A stretch of DNA of 64,000 nucleotides from Luteibaculum oceani (GTDB taxonomy: Bacteria; Bacteroidota; Bacteroidia; Flavobacteriales_D; Luteibaculaceae): NCBI RefSeq assembly GCF_007995015.1, contig NZ_VORB01000005.1:1-64000 (forward strand), written 5' to 3'. Position numbers and translations under genes: made by a program. Shown here one piece after another: positions 32,966 to 34,270 of this stretch (the first letter of the stretch is position 1; every line of letters starts with the position of its first letter). Below the pieces are notes generated by a model, which was given only the letters and a program-made list of their open reading frames with translations, made no database searches and was not told the DNA's origin.

Positions 32966-33640
32966 TCATTGGTAATTTAATGCTCTTAACGCCCCAATTT
33001 TTTTTCGAAATTTCTGGATTTTCATTCCTATTCGCTTCCTCAACTTTCTAAAGTGCCCCAACACATACAATCTGGCCAGGATAATTACGATGCACCCCGC
33101 GATACTCGCTTTAAAAGGATCTACTTCTAATCCGAATTGCAGCAGCACCTTAATTAATCCACCTCCCAATAATAAAGTAGCATACCATTCTGATCTGAAA
33201 ATCCTAGGTATTTCGTTACATGTGATGTCTCTTAGAATACCTCCACAAGTTCCCGAAAGCATCCCTAGAAAAATTGCTGCGACTGGTCCCGCTTCAAAAT
33301 GCAAACTCTTTTCCAATCCAGCCATTGCAAAAAAAGCAACCCCCAGAGTGTCTACCACATTAATCAATCGGTTTAGCTTGCTTAAGGATTTCGTTAAAAC
33401 AAAGGCCGTAACAACCCCTAGTACTATGCTAATTAGGTAACCATCTTGTTGAATCCACGCTATGGGGTACGCATTAAGTAGCCAATCGCGCACAGTTCCA
33501 CCACCCACCGCAGTAAGCAACGCGACAAAGCCTATACCAAAGGCGTCTAGTTTACCATAACGTCTAGCAATAAGCGCACCACTGATACTAAAAAAGTAGG
33601 CACCAAATAAATCTGCGAAATAGATAAACTCCTTCGTCAT
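32966..33640 (-). CDS. TRIC-type (UPF0126) cation channel family protein
   Basis: This 224-residue membrane protein has seven helices in two similar halves, each carrying a Gly-rich motif: TAVGGGTVRDWLL (about 44-56) and GTCGGILRDITCNEIP (about 130-145). This is the prokaryotic TRIC/YicG family, monovalent cation channels. The C-terminus adds a basic tail. Its start overlaps the thioesterase stop by 4 bp (ATGA). Confidence 0.92.
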   Translation of the reverse strand: MTKEFIYFADLFGAYFFSISGALIARRYGKLDAFGIGFVALLTAVGGGTVRDWLLNAYPIAWIQQDGYLISIVLGVVTAFVLTKSLSKLNRLINVVDTLGVAFFAMAGLEKSLHFEAGPVAAIFLGMLSGTCGGILRDITCNEIPRIFRSEWYATLLLGGGLIKVLLQFGLEVDPFKASIAGCIVIILARLYVLGHFRKLRKRIGMKIQKFRKKIGALRALNYQ

Positions 33641-34038
33641 GGCCCAACTGGTTTTAGTTTGTGCTTAAATGGTTTTCCTTTCTGCAATGCCACAAAAACA
33701 AAAAATGCATCGCAAATGGTCCTTCGCTGACCGTTAACCTCCTCTTTAATAGCTTTTATACCAACCTTTACCGAAGTATTTCCCCATTCTAGCACGTCGG
33801 TGTGCAACTCTACGATATCTCCCAAGTAGGCAGGCGTTAAAAAGTTCACTTCCCCAACGTGGGCCGTAACTAAACCATCACATCCAGATCCATACAAAGC
33901 ACGACGAGCACAATTACTAGCGGCCAGATCCATTTCGGATAAAAGTTTTCCTCCGAAAAGCGTCCCGGCATAATTCAAAAACTCTGGAAACACGGTGAAG
34001 GTGTAAACTTGTGCATCTTGTTTCTTTGCTGCTTGCAT
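33637..34038 (-). CDS. Acyl-CoA thioesterase, hotdog fold
   Basis: This 133-residue protein has the YbgC/YciA-like pattern: YAGTLFGGKLLSEMDLAA with the catalytic Asp, then HVGEVNFLTPAYLGDIVEL and VKVGIKAI. It hydrolyses acyl-CoA thioesters; the substrate is unknown. It is translationally coupled to the TRIC gene. Tandem hairpins lie directly upstream. Confidence 0.88.
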   Translation of the reverse strand: MQAAKKQDAQVYTFTVFPEFLNYAGTLFGGKLLSEMDLAASNCARRALYGSGCDGLVTAHVGEVNFLTPAYLGDIVELHTDVLEWGNTSVKVGIKAIKEEVNGQRRTICDAFFVFVALQKGKPFKHKLKPVGP

Positions 34039-34066
34039 TTTACTTTCTGTTTTGGTTAAATAAAAA

Positions 34067-34090
34067 GGGCCTTTCTGATCAGAAAGGCCC
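34067..34090 (-). terminator. Second of two tandem terminators upstream of the thioesterase
   Basis: GGGCCTTTCTGA/TCAGAAAGGCCC is a perfect 24-bp palindrome (10-bp stem with a GATC loop) followed by five T on the minus strand. It should end transcripts that pass the first terminator. Confidence 0.75.
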
Positions 34091-34094
34091 CTAA

Positions 34095-34130
34095 TAAAAA
34101 AAGCCTTTCCATTGGACTTGGAAAGGCTTT
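34095..34130 (-). terminator. Attenuator-like terminator after the leader ORF
   Basis: On the minus strand an 11-bp stem AAAGCCTTTCC/GGAAAGGCTTT with a 9-nt loop is followed by a T run. Its left arm and loop (TTTCCAAGT) can instead pair with ACTTGGAAA inside the leader ORF (34176-34184), giving two mutually exclusive structures. Confidence 0.7.
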
Positions 34131-34159
34131 CTATGTTTGGTTAAAATCTATCTAAAATT

Positions 34160-34246
34160 TCAGCATAGTAGTCCATTTCCAAGTTTACCGTTAGGTTTAA
34201 ACTTGCGACACATAGACATACAATAATTTCTGCTGTTGTTTTTCAT
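34160..34246 (-). CDS. Putative 28-codon leader peptide
   Basis: ATG at 34246 to TGA at 34160 encodes MKNNSRNYCMSMCRKFKPNG and eight further residues ending in Cys. The ORF begins 17 bp after a perfect TAnnTTTG element and is followed by a terminator with a competing antiterminator. A ribosome reaching the stop would mask the antiterminator strand; one stalled at the Cys/Met-rich codons (9-13) would not. That is the layout of transcription attenuation. The controlled gene is not obvious. An alternative is that this is a small RNA or a chance ORF. Confidence 0.45.
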   Translation of the reverse strand: MKNNSRNYCMSMCRKFKPNGKLGNGLLC

Positions 34247-34262
34247 TGCTTTAATGAGAGCA

Positions 34263-34270
34263 CAAATCTA
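34263..34270 (-). promoter_or_regulatory. -7 promoter element of the leader transcript
   Basis: TAGATTTG on the minus strand, a perfect TAnnTTTG. The start of transcription would fall close to 34256, about 10 bases before the leader ORF. No clear -33 TTG. Confidence 0.5.

Follow-up and report, generated by a model that had tools for sequence, protein, structure and literature searches.

Leader-peptide attenuation as such is a classical mode of gene control. In the trp/his-type attenuators of Proteobacteria and in the ilvB1 leader of M. tuberculosis (PMC13236596), a short ORF with regulatory codons is followed by an intrinsic terminator, the antiterminator overlaps the end of the ORF, and a ribosome at the stop codon masks the antiterminator strand. 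The cys operons of mycobacteria and Actinobacteria are preceded by attenuators with polycysteine short ORFs (PMC1262725; Cys leaders in Actinobacteria, Canestrari et al., 2020, as cited in PMC13236596), which are leaderless, of the Rho or translation type, respond to Cys only, and have no conserved intrinsic terminators. In Bacteroidota, a passage that does not name Cys or Met places leader-peptide attenuation before amino-acid operons of Flavobacterium psychrophilum (PMC9723704), and short ORFs occur in Bacteroides 5' UTRs (PMC7366714). These two cases share phylum and proposed principle with the locus described here, and the passages concerned describe no Cys/Met leader and no leader before a thioesterase. 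Searches of the main texts of openly accessible papers likewise turned up no leader of the Met/Cys kind for this phylum, nor any leader upstream of a thioesterase gene.

The locus lies in a 64,000-nucleotide stretch of the Luteibaculum oceani genome (hereafter the window; contig NZ_VORB01000005.1, positions 1 to 64,000), where it separates the gene of an acyl-CoA thioesterase from a divergently oriented flavin-reductase gene. On the minus strand, TAGATTTG is followed by a 28-codon ORF, two strong U-tailed hairpins, the thioesterase gene and a TRIC gene (Table 1). On the basis of sequence and computation, we consider this leader likely to be a ribosome-mediated transcription attenuator that senses Cys and/or Met. 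In sequence and predicted folding it shares with the trp/his-type and ilvB1 leaders every feature listed above, and differs from them in its Cys/Met sensor codons, its thioesterase-TRIC target and its tandem terminators with a possible relay; moreover, no strong 1:2 protector hairpin was seen in its relatives. With the polycysteine attenuators, which control sulfur-amino-acid genes, it has in common Cys codons in the leader ORF, but here Met codons accompany those for Cys, the phylum is another one, and leaders of the window type carry intrinsic terminators. SAM-I riboswitches (RF00162) control met genes in L. oceani as well as in relatives; by contrast, the window locus has no aptamer, and sensing would be by translation rather than by SAM binding. 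The general kind of regulator is known, while the sensor codons, target genes, phylum and possible relay appear to be new.

Table 1. Features of the predicted attenuator and of the genes downstream (window coordinates).
Feature	Position	Strand	Basis
Promoter element TAGATTTG, match to the Bacteroidota -7 element TAnnTTTG	34263..34270	-	Sequence
Leader ORF, 28 codons, MKNNSRNYCMSMCRKFKPNGKLGNGLLC and stop	34160..34246	-	Cys/Met-rich ORF before gene or operon in 14/14 orthologous loci
Proposed regulatory codons C9 M10 S11 M12 C13	34208..34222	-	Cys + Met enrichment before the switch point, five leaders
Segment 1, CAAGTTTAAACC; can pair with segment 2 region TAAACTTG (34187-34180), possible protector hairpin	34194..34205	-	MFE fold; weakly supported
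Segment 2, ACTTGGAAA, codons 21-24, antiterminator 5' strand	34176..34184	-	Complementarity and folding
Segment 3, TTTCCAAGT, antiterminator 3' strand, overlaps terminator 1 left arm and loop	34116..34124	-	Complementarity and folding
Segment 4, terminator 1 right arm, can pair with segment 5	34099..34111	-	4:5 hairpin, -14.6 kcal/mol
Segment 5, terminator 2 left arm (AGGGGCCTTTCT)	34081..34092	-	Terminator calls
Terminator 1 with U-run (AGAAAGCCTTTCCAAGTCCAATGGAAAGGCTTTTTTT); stem-loop 34131-34099	34094..34131	-	Fold and terminator calls
Terminator 2 with U-rich tail (AGGGGCCTTTCTGATCAGAAAGGCCCTTTTTA); stem-loop 34092-34065	34061..34092	-	Fold and terminator calls
Acyl-CoA thioesterase (4HBT/YciA-like hotdog protein), first proposed target gene	33637..34038	-	PF03061, E 1.6e-12; matches PDB acyl-CoA hydrolases
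TRIC membrane protein (PF03458, 'Glycine transporter'), second proposed target gene	32966..33640	-	PF03458, E 1.5e-37

TAGATTTG matches the -7 consensus TAnnTTTG given for Bacteroidota in PMC7366714, and the same motif stands 12-57 nt upstream of the ATG in nine leaders, the window's included. A preliminary description of this DNA had put the ATG 17 bp after the element; the element is present at 34270-34263, but the spacer is 16 nt, hence the transcript probably begins with several nt of 5' UTR. The Cys/Met-rich ORF that it reported is there, and when its intergenic region was shuffled, a short ORF equally rich in Cys/Met arose 0.4% of the time (p 0.004). With its CMSMC in mid-ORF and no Cys run beside the stop codon, this ORF is not of the leaderless polycysteine type. 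We noted that its start has a G at -3 instead of the favored A, which counts against the attenuator reading.

Downstream of the ORF, both terminators named in the preliminary description were found, the second being a strong hairpin (34092-34065) with a U-rich tail, and the complementarity that it had proposed between the first terminator's left arm and loop and a stretch of the ORF is perfect over 9 nt (ACTTGGAAA, 34184-34176, against TTTCCAAGT, 34124-34116). This complementarity alone has p ~0.01 against codon- or dinucleotide-shuffled ORFs, and the folding z of -5.9 for the stretch is due mostly to the two terminators. Taken singly, then, the features of the window are only moderately unlikely. 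The thioesterase ATG (34038) lies ~27 nt past terminator 2, and the thioesterase stop and TRIC start overlap as ATGA (33640-33637); coordinates and Pfam matches bear out the described order of terminators followed by a thioesterase-TRIC gene pair. Nothing at the locus scored above the gathering threshold in Rfam, including SAM-I and T-box. The best match below threshold was PyrR (33.4 bits, 54 needed), over the terminators, and the sub-threshold matches to RefA9 and BTnc231 also fall on the terminators.

Next, we computed folds of the nascent RNA as far as the terminator loop, masking 30 nt around the ribosome at each of its positions. While the ribosome occupied Cys/Met codons close to the switch point, the in silico antiterminator probability was 0.87-1.0, and it was 0.00 from the moment the ribosome had passed the switch point (in the window, after codon 19) through to the stop codon. 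The exception was one leader of a relative, L062a, with a probability of 0.59 when the ribosome stood exactly at the stop codon. The earlier proposal that ribosome position decides between antiterminator and terminator thus agrees with nascent-RNA folding in silico. At equilibrium, however, the full-length RNA prefers the terminators at every ribosome position, so the switch would depend on co-transcriptional kinetics, with the timing assumed. When the model contained no ribosome, the antiterminator mostly formed, unlike in trp. A protector hairpin (1:2, CAAGTTTA/TAAACTTG) is possible in the window, and none is evident in the relatives L038 and L039.

From these features we infer how the leader would be transcribed and translated and what it would sense. 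RNA polymerase would start just downstream of TAGATTTG, and a ribosome would follow on the 28-codon ORF. With charged tRNA-Cys and tRNA-Met plentiful, the ribosome would reach the stop codon and cover ACTTGGAAA, terminator 1 would form with terminator 2 as a back-up, and the transcript would end at ~165-200 nt. If Cys and/or Met were short, the ribosome would stall in CMSMC and leave ACTTGGAAA free to pair with TTTCCAAGT once the latter had been transcribed, which would block terminator 1. The right arm of terminator 1, now unpaired, could bind terminator 2's left arm, permitting read-through into thioesterase-TRIC; pairings 2:3 and 4:5 would thereby take the place of 3:4 and 5:6. CoA is made from cysteine, and the physiological purpose might perhaps be to recover free CoA when sulfur amino acids run short.

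The relay is invoked at the second terminator, which would defeat a simple antiterminator. The hairpin between the right arm of terminator 1 and the left arm of terminator 2 has an energy of -14.6 kcal/mol, and the MFE fold holds both 2:3 and 4:5 at the point where the polymerase has just completed the latter arm. Complementarity between terminators can stem from their looking alike, and 2% of random terminator pairs reach the 4:5 energy; hence a double-terminator relay in the window is plausible rather than demonstrated. No counterpart of the relay was found among the relatives. If true, it would be a simple route to an attenuator that is tight when off yet releasable.

The preliminary description had pointed to relatives as the place to look for a conserved ORF and covarying pairing. 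Neither the leader DNA nor its peptide has a recognizable homologue: in 100 relatives the DNA gave nothing beyond chance matches to short AT-rich or terminator-like stretches, the 28-aa peptide gave weak matches in unrelated sequence without leader context among 399 genomes, and Pfam and NCBIfam hold no family for it. We therefore used the thioesterase as the query, in genomes of the genus, family, order and class and in one contig scan; L. oceani is the sole member of its family among the genomes compared. Fourteen thioesterase orthologues were found in Bacteroidota, the window's own and 13 others, and genus and order searches around the genomes G091, G716 and G755 added none.

A short Cys/Met-rich ORF precedes the thioesterase or its operon at all 14 loci (Fisher combined p 2e-20 when each region is compared with its own dinucleotide shuffles), with p <= 0.01 at 13 of them and p 0.15 at L062; the loci are not fully independent, since L038 and L039 come from one genus, as do the four loci of family f57. 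Examples are MKPQTLHINTIWRMPKPHMMRKCYMLCTYQPHRTGLE (L038), MIIQAPGNTIFKSKPMAACIHMCMWSYMQAFPWSRTGNN (L039), MKATQTYLFNSHRGCCMPMSRRCMC (L066) and MNNKQHISVSQMHRMHHCMCMCCMCM (L088, the operon of L060). Intrinsic terminators stand beside the leader ORF in the window (two), L038 (one), L039 (one) and L062 (two); at L062, on the reverse strand within 536 nt before the thioesterase, two complete ORF-terminator units lie in series. In all five of the resulting ORF-terminator leaders (window, L038, L039, L062a and L062b), the end of the ORF pairs with the left arm of a terminator, over 9, 7, 7, 8 and 6 nt, respectively, and the pairing segment ends 7-15 nt before the stop codon. The paired sequences are mostly unrelated (GAACAGG/CCTGTTC in L038 and L039, AGAGGCTT/AAGCCTCT in L062a, GAGAAG/CTTCTC in L062b). 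Combined over the five leaders, the pairing has p 0.005 when scored by duplex energy and 0.002 when scored by longest complement; taken on their own, L039 and L062b show weak pairing (p ~0.09 or more). By comparison, complementarity of this sort spanned just 3-6 nt at 26 decoy gene-end terminators (Mann-Whitney p 1e-4, or 4e-4 with L038 and L039 counted once). Independent cases of pairing are few, L038 and L039 being of one genus; the relatives that show it come from two families other than that of the window. The check on relatives suggested in the preliminary description thus had a positive outcome, and the element is real and conserved.

This conservation bears on whether the locus encodes a free-standing small RNA of ~165-200 nt, or a processed form of it, acting in trans, with an incidental ORF and a thioesterase gene that has its own promoter. 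A promoter element of its own and two tandem terminators would indeed make a complete short transcription unit. Nevertheless, the sequence of the RNA shows no conservation whatsoever, whereas the position before the thioesterase, the Cys/Met coding and the arm pairing are kept, and the distance from terminator 2 to the thioesterase ATG leaves no room for a downstream promoter. As the leader stays with the thioesterase gene despite complete sequence divergence, we regard a trans-acting RNA as unlikely; of the two options left side by side in the preliminary description, a new attenuator or a small RNA, the evidence favors the former.

For the attenuator, the codons themselves are informative. 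Taking from each of the five leaders the 12 codons that precede its switch point, we counted 8 Cys among the 60 (0.5 expected, p 5e-8) and 10 Met (1.1 expected, p 1.6e-7), and the enrichment of His is marginal. Gly codons (G20, G23 and G25 in the window), considered as the sensor on account of the 'glycine transporter' name of PF03458, were rejected, with Gly at 0 of 60 in the stall zone of the five leaders. Rival explanations are a Cys/Met peptide that is itself functional, for instance in metal binding, or a nascent-chain arrest peptide that senses a small molecule instead of tRNA charging; the attenuator logic would then answer another signal. A C-x3-C motif with Met inside does recur in the window, L038 and L039. 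However, the spacing and order of Cys and Met vary freely in the leaders of L059, L062 and f57, as codon counting predicts and a peptide motif does not, and the leaders of f57 and of family f23 turn into runs of Cys, Met and His codons; a role of the peptide itself is accordingly quite improbable. That a random short ORF happens to precede two ordinary, non-regulatory terminators is in keeping with the modest single-locus statistics (p 0.004-0.02), but the 14 of 14 orthologous loci and the pairing kept with different sequences make chance a very remote explanation.

The gene neighborhoods add to the attenuator reading a link to sulfur metabolism. In the window the thioesterase is paired with TRIC only, and TRIC also follows it at L038, L039, L059 and L062; at the four f57 loci (L063-L066), it has other neighbors. 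At L060, L061, L067, L068 and L069, it lies beside genes for homoserine O-acetyltransferase (metX), a Cys/Met PLP-enzyme (named from PF01053) or homoserine dehydrogenase; the first and last of these we take to be such from reading their sequences. The earlier view that the downstream genes have no obvious Cys/Met role needs revision, since the company of methionine-biosynthesis genes in five relatives supplies a Cys/Met link for the thioesterase. The met operons that contain the thioesterase have extreme Cys/Met leaders, e.g. HHSMHAMCMHMCCCMCS.

Despite the Cys/Met ORF, 10 of the 14 loci have no clear intrinsic terminator, L059, f57 and the f23 met-operon leaders among them, and these ten must use another output. 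In this respect the f57 and f23 leaders resemble the polycysteine attenuators. At L059 and in f57, a C-rich, G-poor spacer separates the ORF from the gene, and in f57 this spacer is almost unstructured; Rho-dependent termination would suit such spacers, as has been suggested for actinobacterial cys leaders (PMC1262725). We also noted that the f23 met operons carry two successive Met/Cys/His-rich leader ORFs (L084 900-1479, L086 959-1488, L087 2799-3464 on the minus strand, L088 875-1473), the second of which, in L086-L088, ends in a near-perfect hairpin overlapping its last codons (e.g. TGTTGCTC-ACACG-AGCAACA). Neither an intrinsic terminator nor an Rfam match was found in these leaders (L084, L086-L088). 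At L085 (1-278), the leader ORF MIITINNIHFDNFVLSHHECCYCCCR stands before a peroxiredoxin-thioesterase-metY operon, which ties this leader type to redox/sulfur genes.

Elsewhere in the L. oceani genome (L089 3150-3257, contig C2 near 166 kb), a SAM-I riboswitch (RF00162, 90.5 bits) precedes an operon with OsmC-like, metZ and metX genes. Three SAM-I-preceded met operons, from this genome, G716 and G755, served as controls, and none has a Cys/Met leader ORF upstream. G755 has SAM-I on its met operon, but its thioesterase-TRIC operon (L062) carries the two leader-terminator units in tandem. L. oceani controls met genes through SAM and, apparently, the thioesterase through tRNA charge. A wider reading is possible, if still somewhat doubtful: Bacteroidota may have a sulfur-amino-acid leader regulon in which Cys and Met codons are read together, controlling a dedicated thioesterase, in some lineages whole met operons that are SAM-riboswitched elsewhere, and in the window employing a double-terminator relay; this would make the thioesterase an enzyme of sulfur limitation that, for example, frees CoA. 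If true, Bacteroidota would gain a translation-based Cys/Met sensor beside the SAM riboswitch, one type of regulator would have been swapped for another on the same genes, and an anonymous thioesterase and the TRIC/PF03458 membrane protein would be placed in sulfur-amino-acid physiology.

Two minor observations were made in the course of the searches. A partial tRNA-like Rfam match (34.1 bits), not called by ARAGORN, lies at 397-454 on the minus strand of the window, and a 174.7-kb IMG/VR contig classed as viral (L102) encodes one remote thioesterase homologue with 34% identity.
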